Assembly: GCF_001955655.1 (NCBI RefSeq)
Contig: NZ_MSPW01000003.1
Span: forward strand, 62,001 to 126,000
Reading direction: 5' to 3'
Length of the DNA stretch: 64,000 nucleotides
Origin: Viridibacillus arenosi
Lineage (GTDB): Bacteria > Bacillota > Bacilli > Bacillales_A > Planococcaceae
Shown here: piece by piece, positions 4,086 to 52,963 of the stretch
Position numbering within the stretch: the first letter of the stretch is position 1
How the letters are laid out: every line of letters starts with the position of its first letter
Program-made: the position numbers and the translations under genes
The notes under the pieces: model-generated
The model's database searches: none
What the model saw: only the letters and a program-made list of their open reading frames with translations
What the model was told of the DNA's origin: nothing

Positions 4086-4168
<83 letters not shown>

Positions 4169-6913: not shown

Positions 6914-7723
6914 TTATTCACTTTGTGCTAATTCGCGTGATTTCGCTTCTGCGTCATGAATGCATGCCATAATCGCGTCTTTGAAGTGGTTTTCTTCTAA
7001 TGCTTTAATGCCGGCTTCAGTAGTGCCTCCTGGACTTGTTACTTTTCTACGTAGTTCTGTTGGTTCTTCTGTAGATTGTTTCAACATTTCAGCTGCACCT
7101 GCAATTGTTTGAACGGCGAGTGAGCGTACAACTTCACGTGATAAGCCGTACTTAACGCCAGCTTGTTCGAATGCTTCGACTAGATAGTATAAATATGCTG
7201 GACCACTGCCTGAGACAGCTGTTACTGCATGTAGCTTATCTTCCTCCACTTCGATTACTGTGCCTATTGCTTCTAACATTGTCATAAAATCTTGTTTTAA
7301 ACTTGCGTCGATTTGTTCATTAAATGATACGCCGCTTGCTGACATGCCGATTGTAGCTGATGTGTTTGGCATAACGCGAGCAATTGGTCGTTTTCCTAAA
7401 CTATTTTCAATCGTTGCAATGGAAATACCTGCAACAACGGATAAGACAGCTGTATGTTCTTGAAGGAGTGGAGCTAAAGCTTCCATTCCTTTTATAACGT
7501 CTTTCGGTTTCATAGCTAAAATAATGCAATCTGCAACTTTTACAACATCGAGACTGTCAGAAACAATTTGTACGCCATATGCGTCAGCGATACGATTCAG
7601 TTTTTGACGATCGGACTTATTCATAATATGAATGCTTTTGGGTGATACGACACCTTCTTTTACCCAACCTTGAATCATCGCTTCAGCCATTGAACCTGCA
7701 CCAGCAAATACAATTGTTTGCAT
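6914..7723 (-). CDS. proC: Pyrroline-5-carboxylate reductase
   Basis: This enzyme catalyses the last step of proline biosynthesis, NAD(P)H-dependent reduction of 1-pyrroline-5-carboxylate. The 269-residue protein starts with the Rossmann motif GAGSMAEAM and has the family signatures AVSGSGPAYLYYLVEA and TSPGGTTEAGI in the helical dimerisation domain. A strong GGAGGCG ribosome binding site precedes the ATG. It is transcribed alone behind a T-box leader with a consensus promoter, so its expression should rise when tRNA-Pro is uncharged. This parallels T-box control of proBA and proI in Bacillus subtilis. Confidence 0.96.
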   Translation of the reverse strand: MQTIVFAGAGSMAEAMIQGWVKEGVVSPKSIHIMNKSDRQKLNRIADAYGVQIVSDSLDVVKVADCIILAMKPKDVIKGMEALAPLLQEHTAVLSVVAGISIATIENSLGKRPIARVMPNTSATIGMSASGVSFNEQIDASLKQDFMTMLEAIGTVIEVEEDKLHAVTAVSGSGPAYLYYLVEAFEQAGVKYGLSREVVRSLAVQTIAGAAEMLKQSTEEPTELRRKVTSPGGTTEAGIKALEENHFKDAIMACIHDAEAKSRELAQSE

Positions 7724-17075: not shown

Positions 17076-18836
17076 ATGAAGGTATTTTTTGAATTAGGTT
17101 GGTTCTTTAAAGAGCGTAAGAAGCAATACTTAGTGGGAATTTCGCTCTTAATCATGGTGGCAATGTTACAGTTAGTACCGCCAAAAATTATTGGTGTTGT
17201 TGTCGATGAAATTGGCGGTGGCAACTTAACTGTGGGCTCGCTAGTTAAATGGTTGAGTCTATTAGCTGCTTCTGCAATATTGATGTATGTGATTCGCTAT
17301 TATTGGCGGATTATGATTTTTGGATCGTCTATGACACTAGCTAAAAGGTTACGTGCAAAATTATTTCATCACTTTACGTCGATGGCACCGTCCTTTTATC
17401 AAAAACGTCGTATCGGAGATTTAATGGCACATGCCACAAATGATGTATCAGCTGTGCAACAAACAGCGGGAAATGGTGTTTTAACTCTTGTAGATTCTAT
17501 TACAACAGGGGGCTTTGTAATCTTGGCAATGGCCATTACGATCGATTGGAAGCTAACGTTAATCGCTTTAATTCCAATGCCGTTTATGGCGCTGTCAACG
17601 AATTATTACGGTAAACTTTTACATGCACGTTTTCATCATGCGCAAGCCGCGTTTTCGGACTTAAATGATAAAACGCAGGAAAGTATTACTGGTATAAAAG
17701 TGATGAAGACATTTGGTCAAGACAAAGAGGATATCGCAGATTTTAAACGATTATCTGACGAAGTTGTTGCGAAAAATACACGAGTGGCAAAGGTGGATTC
17801 ACTATTTGATCCAACAATTTCACTTGTTGTAGGTATATCATTTTTCTTAACGATTATATTTGGATCTAAATTTGTCGTTGCTGGCGATATGACACTTGGC
17901 GATTTAGTATCGTTTACATCATACTTAGGTCTGCTTGTGTGGCCAATGTTGGCATTTGGTTTACTTTTCAACATCATGGAGCGAGGTAGTGCATCATATG
18001 ACCGAATTCAAAATCTATTATCAGAGAAAATGGATGTTGAAGATAAAGAAGATGCATTATCCATTCGACCACATGGGGATATCGAGTTTAATATTAATTC
18101 ATTTACATTCCCTGGTGATGAGACACCGGCATTAAAAGATGTACAGTTCAAGTTGAAACGTGGTGAAACACTCGGTATTGTCGGCAAGACGGGAGCAGGT
18201 AAAACTGCGATATTAAAACTATTAATGCGTGAATTTGACGGCTACGATGGGGAGATTCGTTACGGAGAGCATGTCATAGGAGATTATCAAGCAATAAAAT
18301 TACGCGAAGCAATTGGCTATGTGCCGCAAGAGCATTTCTTATTCTCTGCATCCTTATATCAAAATATAGCTTTTACAAACCCGGATGTTGGTGAAGATGA
18401 AGTGACAAATGCTGCGCGAATTGCACAAATTCATGATGATATATTGCGCTTTACGGAAGGTTACAATACCGTCGTCGGAGAGCGAGGAGTATCACTTTCT
18501 GGAGGACAGAAACAACGGATATCGATTGCACGAGCGTTGTTAATGAAGCCTGAACTGCTCATATTAGACGATTCTTTATCAGCAGTTGACGCAAAGACAG
18601 AAGAAGCCATTTTAGAGTCATTAAAAGAAGCTAGAACAGACGCTACGACAATTATTACGTCCCACCGATTAAGTGCACTTGTCCATGCGCATCTCATCAT
18701 TGTTTTACATGATGGGGCAGTTGTAGAAAAAGGAACACATGAAAAGTTAATGGCACTTAAAGGTCGTTATTTCGAAATGTATCAATTGCAACAACTTGAA
18801 CAACAGGTTGAAGAGGGGGTGAGTCAACATGAATGA
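17076..18836 (+). CDS. yheI: Heterodimeric ABC exporter subunit, YheI (BmrC)-like
   Basis: This is a half-transporter with an N-terminal six-helix exporter domain and a C-terminal ATPase, 586 residues. The N-terminus ELGWFFKERKKQY and MVPPKI-like region resemble Bacillus YheI. Walker A is GKTGAGKT near 370 and the signature is canonical LSGGQ near 474. The residue after Walker B (LLILDDSLSAVD) is Asp rather than catalytic Glu, so this subunit contributes the degenerate site half. It overlaps the next gene by 8 bp, as expected for a BmrCD-type multidrug exporter. Substrate is inferred only from the family. Confidence 0.88.
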   Translation: MKVFFELGWFFKERKKQYLVGISLLIMVAMLQLVPPKIIGVVVDEIGGGNLTVGSLVKWLSLLAASAILMYVIRYYWRIMIFGSSMTLAKRLRAKLFHHFTSMAPSFYQKRRIGDLMAHATNDVSAVQQTAGNGVLTLVDSITTGGFVILAMAITIDWKLTLIALIPMPFMALSTNYYGKLLHARFHHAQAAFSDLNDKTQESITGIKVMKTFGQDKEDIADFKRLSDEVVAKNTRVAKVDSLFDPTISLVVGISFFLTIIFGSKFVVAGDMTLGDLVSFTSYLGLLVWPMLAFGLLFNIMERGSASYDRIQNLLSEKMDVEDKEDALSIRPHGDIEFNINSFTFPGDETPALKDVQFKLKRGETLGIVGKTGAGKTAILKLLMREFDGYDGEIRYGEHVIGDYQAIKLREAIGYVPQEHFLFSASLYQNIAFTNPDVGEDEVTNAARIAQIHDDILRFTEGYNTVVGERGVSLSGGQKQRISIARALLMKPELLILDDSLSAVDAKTEEAILESLKEARTDATTIITSHRLSALVHAHLIIVLHDGAVVEKGTHEKLMALKGRYFEMYQLQQLEQQVEEGVSQHE

Positions 18837-20616
18837 AGAACAAAAAATCACCCTAACAGGTAAGGAACAGTGGCAAGTATTAAAGCGACTCCTTACATAT
18901 TTGAAACCACATAAAAAGTCCATTGTGATTGCATTAATGTTGCTCTTAATTACTGTTCTCGGCGATATACTCGGACCATTGTTAATTAAAATATTTATGG
19001 ATGATTATTTAACACCACGTCATTTCCCGACAAATACGTTAATCACCTTAGCTGCGGTATACATTGGCATTCAAATATTGAATTCGGTTATTAGTTATTT
19101 ACAGATGCTTCGTTTCAATGTGCTAGCTCTTAAGGTAATCCAGCAGTTACGAATAGATGTCTATACAAAGGTTCATAAACTAGGTATGCGCTATTTTGAT
19201 AAAACACCAGCTGGTAGTATCGTATCTCGTGTAACGAATGATACGGAAGCCATTATGGATATGTTCGTTAGTGTATTAATTGGCTTTGTACAAAGTGGCT
19301 TTTTAGTCATCGGAGTATATATTGCAATGTTTGTATTAAACTGGAAACTGGCATTAGCAACAGTTATTTTACTACCTATTCTTTTCTGTATTGTCTATAT
19401 TTATAGAAAATATAGTGCCTTTTATTATATGGATATGCGTGAAAGACTGAGTCAATTAAATGCCAAACTTGCAGAATCATTATCTGGTATGTCGATTGTG
19501 CAGGCATTTCGTCAGGAAAAACGTTTCCGAGATGAGTTTGACGAGATAAATGAAAAGCATTATAAAGCAGTGATGAGTAGTATTAAACTAGATGGTTTAT
19601 TATTAAGACCTGTCATTGACTTGGTGTATGCGTTTGGTCTAATTTTAATGTTGAGCTTTTTTGGGATAACATCCTTTAGTGAACCGGTAGAAATCGGTGT
19701 CATTTATGCATTTGTCAGCTATATTAATCGCTTTTTTGAACCGATTAATCAAGTCATGCAAAGACTTTCAATTTTCCAGCAAGCGATTGTTTCTGCATCA
19801 CGCGTCTTTACATTATTGGACGACAAGGAATTAGATCCTCAGCAACTCGATGATTCTTCTGTGAAAATGTCAGACGGTCATATTGAATTCCGAAATGTAA
19901 CATTCTCATATGATGGTAAGACTGATGTTTTGAAAAATATTTCATTTACCGTTAAACCTGGTGAAACGGTCGCGCTTGTCGGTCATACTGGGAGCGGAAA
20001 AAGTTCAATTATTAACCTATTAATGCGATTTTACGAGTTTGAAAGAGGAGAGATTTTAATAGATGGGCAGTCGATTAAAAATTTCCCGAAACAAACGTTG
20101 AGACAGCAGATGGGTCTAGTATTACAAGAACCATTCTTGTTTTACGGAAATATTGAAAGTAATATCAAACTCTTTAATGAAAACCTGTCGGAAGAAGATG
20201 TCAAAGCTGCAGCAGAGTTTGTGCAAGCAGATCAATTTATCGAATCCATGCCAAATGGCTATAAACATCAAGTGTCAGAACGTGGTTCCACATTCTCAAG
20301 TGGGCAAAGGCAGCTCATTGCATTTGCGCGAACTATTGCAACGAATCCGAAAGTGCTCGTATTAGATGAAGCAACAGCAACAATCGATACAGAAACTGAA
20401 GTAGCCATTCAAGGAAGTCTCGACAAAATGCGTCAAGGTCGTACAACAATTGCCATCGCGCATCGCCTAAGTACGATACAAGATGCCGAGCAAATATTAG
20501 TGCTCCACCATGGTGAAATTGTCGAGCGAGGAACACATCAAGAGTTACTTGCTAAAAATGGCTTGTATCATAAGATGTATCAGTTACAAAATGGATTAGT
20601 TCAAGAAGTAGGATAG
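18829..20616 (+). CDS. yheH: Heterodimeric ABC exporter subunit, YheH (BmrD)-like
   Basis: This is the second half-transporter, 595 residues: a six-helix membrane domain, then an ATPase with Walker A GHTGSGKS near 385. The Walker B VLVLDEATA retains the catalytic Glu. Its signature is altered to FSSGQ in place of LSGGQ. Together with the partner's Asp substitution, this predicts one consensus and one degenerate ATP site in the dimer, the arrangement known for BmrCD and TM287/288. It is shorter than Bacillus subtilis YheH, which has an extra N-terminal segment. I found no bmrB-like attenuator upstream of the pair. Confidence 0.88.
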   Translation: MNEEQKITLTGKEQWQVLKRLLTYLKPHKKSIVIALMLLLITVLGDILGPLLIKIFMDDYLTPRHFPTNTLITLAAVYIGIQILNSVISYLQMLRFNVLALKVIQQLRIDVYTKVHKLGMRYFDKTPAGSIVSRVTNDTEAIMDMFVSVLIGFVQSGFLVIGVYIAMFVLNWKLALATVILLPILFCIVYIYRKYSAFYYMDMRERLSQLNAKLAESLSGMSIVQAFRQEKRFRDEFDEINEKHYKAVMSSIKLDGLLLRPVIDLVYAFGLILMLSFFGITSFSEPVEIGVIYAFVSYINRFFEPINQVMQRLSIFQQAIVSASRVFTLLDDKELDPQQLDDSSVKMSDGHIEFRNVTFSYDGKTDVLKNISFTVKPGETVALVGHTGSGKSSIINLLMRFYEFERGEILIDGQSIKNFPKQTLRQQMGLVLQEPFLFYGNIESNIKLFNENLSEEDVKAAAEFVQADQFIESMPNGYKHQVSERGSTFSSGQRQLIAFARTIATNPKVLVLDEATATIDTETEVAIQGSLDKMRQGRTTIAIAHRLSTIQDAEQILVLHHGEIVERGTHQELLAKNGLYHKMYQLQNGLVQEVG

Positions 20617-20691
20617 TGCAAGTATAGTCTCCAGGAAGCTGTTGGTAGTTAGCGGCTTTGTGGGGATTTTTTTGTGGGGATTTTAGGAGTT

Positions 20692-20962
20692 GAGTAGGGG
20701 TAAGAGGTTGCGAGTAGCGCTAAAGGGCACGAGTAGCGCCAAAAGGAGCCCGAGCAGAGCCAAAAGGAGCCCGAGCAGCGACAAAGGGATTGCAAGTAGA
20801 GCCAAAAGGAGCTCGAGTAGCGCTAAAGAGATTGCGAGTAGCGCTAAAAGGAGCCCGAGTAGAGCCAAAGGGATTGCGAGTAGCGCTAAAGGGAGCCCGA
20901 ACAGCGCTAAAAGGAGCCCGAGCAACGCTAAAGGGAAGCCGAGTAGCGCCAAAGAGGCACCC
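20692..20962. repeat. GC-rich 21-bp degenerate tandem repeat array (about 13 units)
   Basis: Units follow the consensus GAGTAGCGCTAAARGGAGCCC. Units 3-12 are exactly 21 bp (20731-20940); the first two are 20 and 19 bp, and the last is partial. Many units carry the palindrome AGCGCT. Unit ends alternate between GGAGCCC and GATTGC, hinting at a 42-bp higher-order repeat. A consensus unit has 12 of 21 G/C, far above the flanks. Because 21 is a multiple of three, several frames stay open on both strands (Ser-x-Ala-Lys-x-Ser-Pro heptads on plus, Leu/Ala-rich on minus), but none has a convincing ribosome binding site. It is probably non-coding. The other bases of 20617-21127 show nothing else. Confidence 0.9.
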
Positions 20963-21127
20963 CAATCAAGCGAGTTTTTTCTCATAGTTATATATCATAT
21001 TTTCTTAAATAGCTATCGCTATATTCATTGCATAATTTTGTCATGAAAAATTCACAGACAAAAGAAAAGATATTTCTTGAAAAGTTTGGTACGATGGGTA
21101 CAGAAACTTTAAGGAGCGACAACAAAT

Positions 21128-21838
21128 ATGAATACTGATTTTAACTATTTTTTAGCATTTGGTGCAGGTATTCTTAGTTTTATCTCACCATGTACGTTGC
21201 CGCTTTATCCAGCATTTCTATCTTACATAACAGGTGTGTCATTTGATAAGTTAAAGAATGACAAAGGAATGCTTCAAAAAACGGCCATTTTGCACACATT
21301 GTTTTTCTTACTAGGATTTACAATGATCTTCCTCATTTTAGGGCTAACTACATCTTATCTTTCAGGGTTCTTCTTCAAATACGATGACTTGATTCGTCAA
21401 GTTGGTGGGATATTAATTGTTATTTTTGGACTAATGATTATTGGCGTCTTTACACCGGACTTTTTAATGAAAGATCGCAAATTCCAATTTAAAAATAGAC
21501 CAGCAGGTTATATTGGTTCTTTCTTAATTGGTTTAGCGTTTGCTGCGGGGTGGACTCCCTGTACTGGACCTATCTTAGGTGGTATTCTGTCGTTAGCGGG
21601 TACAAATCCAGGATCAGGTATTTGGTATCTACTAACATATAGTCTTGGTTTCTCTATTCCATTTTTCCTTTTATCATTCTTTATGACAAAATTAAGTTGG
21701 ATTCGTAATCATAGTCAGAAAATCGTTAAAATCGGCGGTTATGTGATGATAATTGTTGGGATATTATTATACTTTGATGGAATGACACTGATTATTAGAT
21801 TATTACAACCAATTTTCGGTGATTTCATGGGATTTTAA
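21128..21838 (+). CDS. ccdA: Cytochrome c biogenesis protein CcdA
   Basis: This DsbD-type membrane thiol-disulfide transporter carries reducing equivalents across the membrane for cytochrome c haem attachment and spore-coat or cortex thiols. The 236-residue protein has six hydrophobic segments. Its two redox cysteines sit in the family contexts SFISPCTLPLYPAF and AAGWTPCTGPILGG. AAGGAGCGAC precedes the ATG. It begins a three-gene cluster with the CheY-like and CcdC-type genes, in the same order as Bacillus subtilis ccdA-yneI-yneJ. Confidence 0.95.
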   Translation: MNTDFNYFLAFGAGILSFISPCTLPLYPAFLSYITGVSFDKLKNDKGMLQKTAILHTLFFLLGFTMIFLILGLTTSYLSGFFFKYDDLIRQVGGILIVIFGLMIIGVFTPDFLMKDRKFQFKNRPAGYIGSFLIGLAFAAGWTPCTGPILGGILSLAGTNPGSGIWYLLTYSLGFSIPFFLLSFFMTKLSWIRNHSQKIVKIGGYVMIIVGILLYFDGMTLIIRLLQPIFGDFMGF

Positions 21839-50257: not shown

Positions 50258-52963
50258 ATGGCAAACAAAAACTTGCATAACAGCCGTGCTTCATTCGAGG
50301 TAAATGGTAAACAGTATAACTTCTACCGTTTAGCTGCTATCGAAGAAGCTGGTATCGCAAATGTATCACGCCTTCCTTATTCAATCAAAGTGTTATTAGA
50401 ATCTGTTTTACGTCAATATGACGGCTATGTAATCAAAGAGGATCATGTTGATCAATTAGCAAAATGGGGCGCAGATGTAGACCCTAATGCTGAAGTTCCT
50501 TTCAAACCATCACGCGTAGTATTACAAGATTTCACTGGTGTACCAGTAGTAGTTGACTTAGCATCTCTACGTTCTGCTATGAAAGAAATGGGCGGAGACG
50601 CTAACGAAATTAACCCTGCAATTCCAGTTGACCTTGTAATTGACCACTCAGTACAAGTTGACAAATATGGTACTGCAACAGCTTTACAAGCTAACATGGA
50701 CCTTGAATTCGAACGTAATGCTGAGCGTTACAACTTCTTAAAATGGGCTCAAACAGCTTATGACAACTTCCGTGCTGTACCTCCAGCAACTGGTATCGTT
50801 CACCAAGTTAACCTTGAGTACTTAGCTCCAGTTGTACACGTGAATGAAAATGCAGACGGAACTTTCGAAACATTCCCAGATTCAGTGGTTGGTACTGACT
50901 CACATACTACAATGATCAACGGTATCGGCGTACTTGGATGGGGTGTAGGTGGTATCGAAGCTGAAGCAGGTATGTTAGGTCAACCTTCATACTTCCCAGT
51001 TCCAGAAGTAATCGGTGTTAAATTAACAGGCGATCTTCCAAACGGAACTACAGCTACTGACTTAGCTCTTAAAGTAACTCAAGTACTACGTGCTAAAGGT
51101 GTAGTAAATAAATTTGTTGAGTTCTTCGGTCCTGGGATTCCTCAATTACCATTAGCTGACCGTGCAACAATTTCAAACATGGCTCCAGAATATGGTGCTA
51201 CATGTGGTTACTTCGCAATTGATGAAGAATCGTTAAACTATATGCGTTTAACTGGTCGTGACGAAGAGCACATCCAAGTTGTTGAAAAATACTTAAAAGA
51301 AAACAACATGTTCTTTGATCCTGAATTAGAACCAGTTTACACAGACGTTGTTGAAATTAACCTTGCTGAAATCGAACCTAACTTATCAGGTCCTAAACGT
51401 CCGCAAGATTTAATTCCACTTTCAAACATGAAAAAACGTTACCACGAAGTAGTAGTAGCTCCTTCTGGTGTACAAGGTTTTGGTTTAACTGAAAAAGAAT
51501 TCGATAAAACTGCAACTGCTAAATTCGCTGAAGGCGATGTAGAAATTCCTGCAGGTGCTGTAGCAATCGCTGCAATCACTTCATGTACAAATACATCTAA
51601 CCCTTACGTATTAATCGCTGCTGGTTTAGTAGCTAAAAAAGCTGTTGAAAAAGGTTTAACTGTTCCTAAATGGGTTAAAACTTCATTAGCACCAGGTTCA
51701 AAAGTTGTTACTGGATACTTAAATGATTCTGGTCTAACTTCTTACTTGGACGAAATCGGTTTCAACACAGTAGGTTACGGCTGTACTACATGTATCGGTA
51801 ACTCAGGTCCATTACTTCCTGAAATTGAAGAAGCGATTACTTCAAATGATTTATTCGTAACTTCTGTTCTTTCAGGTAACCGTAACTTTGAAGGTCGTGT
51901 ACACCCACTAGTTAAAGCTAACTACTTAGCATCACCACCACTTGTTGTTGCTTATGCATTAGCTGGTACTGTAGATGTAGATCTTCAACATGATTCATTC
52001 GGTAAAGACAAAGATGGCAACGATGTATTCTTCGCTGATATCTGGCCTTCAACTGAAGAAATTAACAATGTTCTTAACAAAGTTGTAACTCGTGATCTAT
52101 TCCAAAAAGAATATGCTCGCGTATTCGACGAGAACGAAAAATGGAATGAAATTGAAACTTCAACTGATTCTCTATATACATTTGATGAAAATTCAACTTA
52201 CATTCAAAACCCACCATTCTTCCAAAACCTTGCACCAAAACCAGAAGACATTAAAGGGCTTTCTGGCTTACGTGTACTTGCGAAGTTCGGTGACTCTATC
52301 ACAACTGACCACATCTCTCCTGCAGGTGCGATTGGTAAAGATACACCAGCTGGTCAATACTTACGTGCTAACGGTGTAGAACCACGTAACTTCAACTCTT
52401 ACGGTTCTCGTCGTGGTAACCACGAAGTTATGATGCGCGGTACTTTCGCTAACATCCGTATCCGTAACCAAGTTGCTCCTGGTACAGAAGGTGGTTACAC
52501 TACTTACTGGCCAACAGGCGAAGTTGAGTACATTTACGATGCAGCTATGAAATACGCTAAAAATGGTACTGGTTTAGCTGTACTTGCTGGAAAAGATTAC
52601 GGTATGGGTTCTTCACGTGACTGGGCTGCGAAAGGTACTAACCTTTTAGGCGTTAAAACAGTTATCGCTGAATCTTACGAACGTATTCACCGTTCAAACC
52701 TAGTAATGATGGGTGTTCTTCCATTACAATATGTTGATGGACAAAGCGCTGAATCTTTAGGCTTAACTGGTAAAGAAGAAATCTCAGTTAATATCGCTGA
52801 AGGTGTTAAACCTCAAGATATCTTAACTGTAACTGCTAAAGCTGAAGATGGTTCTGTTAAAGAATTCAAAGCTCTTGCACGTTTCGACTCAGAAGTAGAA
52901 GTAGACTACTACCGTAACGGCGGTATCCTACAAATGGTACTTCGTAACAAATTAACAAAATAA
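50258..52963 (+). CDS. acnA: Aconitate hydratase AcnA
   Basis: This [4Fe-4S] enzyme isomerises citrate to isocitrate in the TCA cycle; iron-free forms of the family can bind RNA. The 901-residue protein is AcnA-type with [19 protein letters not shown], the cluster cysteines in [12 protein letters not shown] and [13 protein letters not shown], and the swivel motif [15 protein letters not shown]. Length equals Bacillus CitB/AcnA. Codon use is highly biased to a few codons, as expected for an abundant enzyme. GAGGGGG precedes the ATG. Confidence 0.99.

Follow-up and report, generated by a model that had tools for sequence, protein, structure and literature searches.

Homing endonucleases, the free-standing ones included, are nucleases whose genes lie at their own targets, which spread by break repair and change specificity fast, and their folds are of the LAGLIDADG, GIY-YIG and HNH kinds. 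In iteron and parS-type arrays, direct repeats of ~19-22 bp are bound by one protein, while in CRISPR a nuclease gene stands beside a repeat array. Bacterial VNTRs such as MIRU, and motifs such as KOPS or Chi, are dispersed, polar and variable in copy number. The arrays described here, together with a partner protein built on a NERD (nuclease-related) domain, would work most like a homing endonuclease and its target, yet appear to differ in fold and in kind of target. The likeness lies in a NERD gene placed beside its own putative target (19/22 genes), in a proposed spread by break repair and in a specificity that would change fast. In contrast to homing endonucleases, however, the putative target is a dispersed tandem array of which most copies are without the gene, and the protein combines NERD with a putative zinc ribbon, in which Pfam finds no known homing-endonuclease family. 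Unlike iteron and parS-type arrays, these arrays are dispersed over the chromosome with many different cores and a nuclease-like partner, and no replicon or segregation genes were seen beside them. They also differ from CRISPR in having a constant core of 13-14 bp plus a 5-7-bp tail homogenised within each array, in lacking spacers and identified Cas proteins, and in lying mostly far from the gene. Unlike MIRU, KOPS or Chi, the partner gene changes with the repeat, and orientation is a tendency only.

As far as the available parts of the sources go, NERD domains are carried by Mokosh type I and Nhi-like defence proteins (PMC10952713), by SmdA, whose authors describe the bacterial role of the domain as previously unstudied (PMC9040797), and by a casposon nuclease (PMC6563490). 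The partner protein has the NERD domain in common with these and with PglW, and differs from them in its layout of NERD, Cys4 ribbon and HTH-like end. Those same parts of the three sources make no mention of repeat arrays for the published NERD proteins. Likewise, no description of NERD with tandem arrays was found in the literature searched, which took in few subscription journals and no preprints.

The window, meaning the whole 64,000-nucleotide stretch of Viridibacillus arenosi DNA analysed, carries one such array in the spacer before ccdA. We read this array as a target in trans of NERD-A, a protein encoded elsewhere in the genome, and give a probability of roughly 0.55 that it belongs to a set of about ten such targets, dispersed over the genome, on which NERD-A acts like a homing endonuclease on a tandem array. 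The features concerned are as follows.

18829..20616, + strand: upstream gene, ABC transporter, 595 aa (named from the sequence-only reading that preceded this analysis and from the sequence)
20627..20668, + strand: predicted intrinsic terminator hairpin of the ABC-transporter gene, then a T-rich run (fold-based scan, -23.2 kcal/mol)
20642..20691, + strand: left array edge, 50 bp, with 19 G and 2 C
20692..20962, + strand: tandem array of 12-13 units of 21 bp (one 19-bp step), with core GAGTAGCGCYAAAG and a variable tail
20962..21011, + strand: right array edge, 50 bp, with 8 C and 4 G
21128..21838, + strand: downstream gene, ccdA, 236 aa (named in the sequence-only reading)

The sequence-only reading had placed about 13 units at 20692-20962, and this was confirmed at 12-13 units. 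Tandem Repeats Finder (TRF) reported 20711-20954 with a period of 21, 11.7 copies, 75% matches, 0% indels and a score of 222; a profile scan gave 12 units at 20712-20961, with a first step of 19 bp and the next ten of 21 bp; and a looser scan added a degenerate unit at 20692 ahead of these twelve. The ten units of exactly 21 bp that had been described at 20731-20940 were correct. The alternating unit ends hold for units 3-8 of these ten but not for the others, and growth by 42-bp steps is only weakly indicated here because the alternation is confined to those six. The palindrome AGCGCT, reported in many units, is indeed present, its extent being 5 of the 12 units when counted. Allowing up to two mismatches, GAGTAGCGCYAAAG occurs at 13 places in the window compared with 0.33 ± 0.53 expected, a number reached in 0/100 shuffles; nine of the 13 matches are inside the array and the remaining four are at 7466, 7826, 26064 and 29763. 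We rejected 7466 and 26064 as coding sequence and 7826 as part of a T-box leader (RF00230, 7774-7989 on the - strand, 97.3 bits), which lies upstream of a proC-like gene (6914-7723, - strand) and is the sole Rfam match of the window. TRF also reported a TTTA run of 9.2 copies at 4132-4168 and a short 21-bp repeat of 2.4 copies at 51525-51574.

Further arrays of the same type are present in the window's genome (G000; 4.43 Mb, 44 contigs), and the ten analysed are all of one family, as the earlier suggestion of a dispersed repeat family would have it. Each of the ten is matched by an array at the same place in the sister genome, Viridibacillus arvi DSM 16317 (G002), with differing unit numbers, for instance 12 units before ccdA in the window's genome and 38 in G002. 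Two more sites analysed in G002, L071 and L199, have another core type. Exactly GAGTAGCGCYAAAG forms the first 14 bases in 17 of the 21 array consensuses from G000 and G002, the exceptions being the second array of L053, L054, the third array of L062, and L071, the last of which is of the other type. The core is constant in these two genomes and the tail, of 5 or 7 bp, is specific to each array. Successive units are spaced 21 or 19 bp apart, with 20 bp a rare exception, and the same spacing is seen in two genera with different cores (L053-L070 and L180-L189). All array sites are intergenic, with neighbouring genes that may be co-directional, convergent or divergent. Assembly breaks fall inside arrays or no more than a few hundred bases away, at the end of contig C39 in G000 (L054) and in C10, C12, C49, C50 and C97 of genome G169, so array counts are lower bounds; TRF overlooks diverged arrays, and genes were called by simple scripts. 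We found no terminal inverted repeats at array ends, where own pairs gave 13.2, cross pairs 13.8 and shuffled pairs 12.9.

A 21-bp period can keep reading frames open, and the open frames noted earlier on both strands do exist (118 aa on +, 100 aa on -), but all six frames are stopped in the orthologous V. arvi array (L066), the frame is not kept and we rejected a coding gene. We consider it very improbable that the array is an RNA or coding element, either translated or transcribed as a 3' tail, sponge or guide RNA. Such an element would agree with the 17 of 33 arrays that have at least one open frame, with an array running in the gene direction in 21 of 22 rows classed as co-directional, and with folding modestly better than in shuffles (z of -2.5 and -3.0 on the two strands). 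However, 19-bp units break reading frames in most arrays, some arrays sit between divergent genes, and a predicted intrinsic terminator lies upstream in about half of them (24/49 array rows, the window's included). Furthermore, no RNA family was matched, with no Rfam hit over the array either at or below the gathering score, which together with the terminators and the modest folding leaves the proposed structured RNA unsupported. In the window the terminator hairpin stops 23 bp short of the array, and in 17 of the 24 terminator-bearing rows, this one among them, the distance from terminator end to array is 12-41 bp. A strict post-terminator rule was rejected, as it covers those 24 of 49 rows only and one of nine NERD-A loci (L305) in a congener (G001), where array starts are cruder. 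We likewise rejected a CRISPR array, with tails recurring within arrays and no cas-like pattern by eye among the flanking proteins.

Comparison of the proteins flanking arrays in different genera revealed one recurrent family of ~310 aa, represented in the window's genome by the following gene.

Contig C39 of G000, 415715-416653: NERD-A gene, adjoining its own array

This gene is outside the window and so was absent from the sequence-only reading; no NERD partner gene was found inside the window or the other trans-array loci scanned. A protein-binding array, one of the options raised there, is now the best reading, with this NERD-zinc-ribbon-HTH protein as candidate partner and with core and protein changing together. 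Pfam NERD (PF08378) was detected in 5/5 proteins tested (E 5.6e-11 to 1.7e-15; 43-58 bits against a cut-off of 22.1), and our reading of the alignment adds a probable Cys4 zinc ribbon and an HTH-like C-terminus, the latter drawn from the alignment because a single-sequence structure model reached a pLDDT of only 34. The G35-E, D70, E83 and K85-type residues (G-x-x-G-E, D, E-x-K), which we take to be the catalytic site, and the Cys4 are invariant in 43/43 proteins. A profile search of the 261 genomes of the bacterial family gave matches at E 1e-20 or lower in 235, frequently more than one per genome, and among the matches listed the profile match spans nearly the whole model. In the PDB there was no convincing relative (two matches only, E 0.28 and 0.45), while NCBIfam, PADLOC and PHROGs gave weak partial matches only, including PglW in PADLOC at E 1.6e-4. 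No relative of the partner gene that would argue for mobility was matched in plasmids, phages or viral contigs, and this weighs against the proposed reading.

We examined how closely genes and arrays are associated, and ~20-21-bp arrays lie beside a NERD partner gene at all 30 best-scoring loci. These loci include several seed proteins, and 20 further regions were hence taken from lower in the list. In these regions a ~21-bp array lies within 1.2 kb of 19/22 partner genes, compared with 16/111 control genes of the same regions (Fisher 8e-11, with the caveat that genes sharing a region are not independent), and arrays account for 10.6% of bases near the partner genes and 0.8% of those far from them. 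Three of the 22 genes (L233, L237 and L247) have no detectable array within 1.2 kb. The far arrays of at least four copies mostly bear the core of the local gene by eye (L230, L231, L249 and one of two in L232). Among 48 genes with a unit, 24 are flanked by arrays on either side, 14 have them only downstream and 10 only upstream, and each partner gene comes with its own core sequence. The same figures bear on whether these are ordinary minisatellites, produced by slippage and unequal exchange in tolerant spacers and spread by chance recombination, with the gene incidental or a passenger. Minisatellites would be expected to show intergenic sites, variable unit number and array-specific tails, and arrays near 16 of the 111 control genes fit them as well, though several of these bear the core of the local NERD gene. 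We nonetheless regard this explanation as quite unlikely given the adjacency of gene and array, a core that stays fixed despite drifting tails, a genome-wide switch of core with the orthologous gene, and the joint absence of a second gene, NERD-B, and its arrays from G000.

Across 43 genes protein identity correlates with unit similarity (Mantel r 0.49; 0/5000 permutations), although this could reflect joint descent. The NERD-A proteins of G000 and G002 are 92% identical and both are accompanied by GAGTAGCGCYAAAG, whereas the G001 ortholog, in the same neighbourhood, is 66-67% identical and its adjacent array has the core GAGTCATAGAAG. This identity is the lowest of the 12-gene neighbourhood, in which the direct neighbours stand at 94% and 89%; among the 11 neighbours compared seven are at 89-95%, but four are also only 67-79% identical, which tells against an argument from divergence. 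A search run to test the core switch detected 87 copies of GAGTCATAGAAG in G001 and one each in G000 and G002, with none in the control. Besides the array at the gene, nine further G001 loci carry at least two exact GAGTCATAGAAG copies, and their flanks match no G000 or G002 array flank (0/9 sites shared), while GAGTAGCGC-type pairs are absent from G001. Decayed fragments are present at two of the old sites in G001, GAGTAACGCCAAAG after flagellin and TTAGCGCCAAAT before ccdA, with no array in the fetched parts before ccdA, where the assembly is broken. The NERD-B core GAGTAGGTTAAA has 23 copies in G002 and 32 in G001, both of which have the gene, and 2 in G000 (control 2), where NERD-B is absent among the NERD matches listed, a third and weaker G000 match falling outside that list; at least one NERD-B array site away from the gene is common to G001 and G002 (L314, L071). 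Because the core switches with the NERD-A ortholog and NERD-B arrays are missing where the gene is missing, arrays follow their gene, and we regard this gene-array pairing as strongly supported by the sequence comparisons. A third pair, NERD-C, was observed at L271 (G000:C9), L272 (G002:C18) and L269 (G001:C80), with arrays around GAGTTAGYGCAACAA in G000 and G002.

In the mechanism that we propose, NERD-A would recognise the 14-bp core, perhaps via its C-terminal half, and would cut in or beside it. Repair of the break from other arrays would then lengthen arrays, would keep the core uniform genome-wide while tails drift in each array, and might occasionally seed arrays in spacers holding a partial core. 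We infer recognition, binding, cutting, repair and any host benefit from sequence, and it can be held against the cutting step that arrays merely cut should be removed by selection. One case is suggestive of seeding at a partial core: the flagellin-side array of G002 starts at CGCTAAAG, a gene-end sequence common to the core, and the terminator at this site, present in G000 and G001, is missing in G002.

Array edges carry a further signature, being C-poor on both sides on the strand that runs 5' to 3' into the array. In G000, G002 and G169, G exceeds C at the left edge in 23/27 arrays and C exceeds G at the right edge in 26/27, a count that leaves out six rows near locus ends, and among 60 arrays from other genomes the left-minus-right value lies above zero in 56 and below it in 4, compared with 50% at random places. 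Folded edge skew is +0.46 and +0.34 in sets of 33 and 61 arrays, respectively, and declines to about zero at 90 bp. In the Viridibacillus arrays, C to T changes are most frequent in the first two units (27% of C sites), falling to 14% in the middle units and 13% in the last two, with G to A at 4.3%, 4.9% and 8.6%, respectively; in G169 the effect is seen at the right edge only (G to A 9.1% versus 1.2%), with left C to T at 1/22 sites. Such a pattern would be expected if a break in the array were followed by loss of cytosines from the 3'-ended strand. Selection for GT-rich, recombination-prone ends is an alternative cause, and decayed units could also be responsible. In arrays that are C-rich on the + strand the left excess is weaker (19/32 above zero) and the right strong (29/32 below zero), while in G-rich arrays the left is above zero in 16/17 and the right below zero in 11/17, and part of the left-edge G excess in the G-rich arrays may come from decayed units.

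The pairing of gene and array would be equally well accommodated by binding without cutting, in which the protein binds arrays that serve as sites for loading or marking and so keep the chromosome organised or protected, and the nuclease site of the protein has some other function or is directed solely at foreign DNA. Array positions kept across two species are consistent with such a role, as is the strand on which arrays lie, with positive local GC skew on the array strand in 41/49 rows (four of these at 0.001), as a polar chromosome mark might show. A strict leading-strand rule was rejected, the skew being a tendency only (11/16 later rows positive), and its exceptions, L196, L310, L312 and L316, also count against a mark of this kind. 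Moreover, site turnover between G001 and G000/G002 is complete on the change of core, and the two-sided loss of C at array edges is not expected from binding alone; we consider binding without cutting unlikely, though it is the foremost of the alternatives to a NERD-A that cuts its arrays.

The array family and its nuclease-like protein point to an undescribed nuclease-and-target system that would spread and renew itself in bacterial chromosomes. We would tentatively, and with more doubt than for the window's array, extend this to a self-propagating nuclease-satellite system, widespread in the bacterial family and present as several independent pairs in each genome. In it the NERD nuclease and its arrays would drive each other, and a change of specificity would leave old arrays to decay while the new core gives rise to arrays elsewhere. 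A very common and hardly studied kind of protein arrives here with a candidate DNA target written alongside, and with many genes, each with its own core, specificity, cutting and co-evolution become testable together. Should the nuclease drive its own arrays, bacteria would possess an equivalent of homing genes and selfish satellites; should the host benefit, the arrays would form a chromosome-wide set of binding sites of a new kind. Both outcomes would account for many 20-21-bp arrays, as well as spurious repetitive proteins, among these genomes.

We finally surveyed arrays and cores in other genomes. The three-unit scaffold pattern GAGTN6AAA matches in 29/261 genomes of the bacterial family, the reversed control being empty in most, and in 8/398 genomes of a class sample, of which four are outside the family and two of these look chance-like by eye. 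No such array was found in viral contigs. The 11 array consensuses of G169, drawn from arrays of at least seven units, without exception read GAGTTGTGCAAAAG. Outside the bacterial family, L191 (G549:C4:9000-25000) has a ~21-bp array, GAGTCCGCGCAAAGGAGAGCC, with no NERD gene in 16 kb. L090 and L091 (in G065 and G066), where no NERD gene lies within the 3 kb scanned, carry the near-identical units GAGTGAAGAGAAATACTCGCG and GAGTCAGAGGAAATACTCGCG at two places each, and these arrays look recent.
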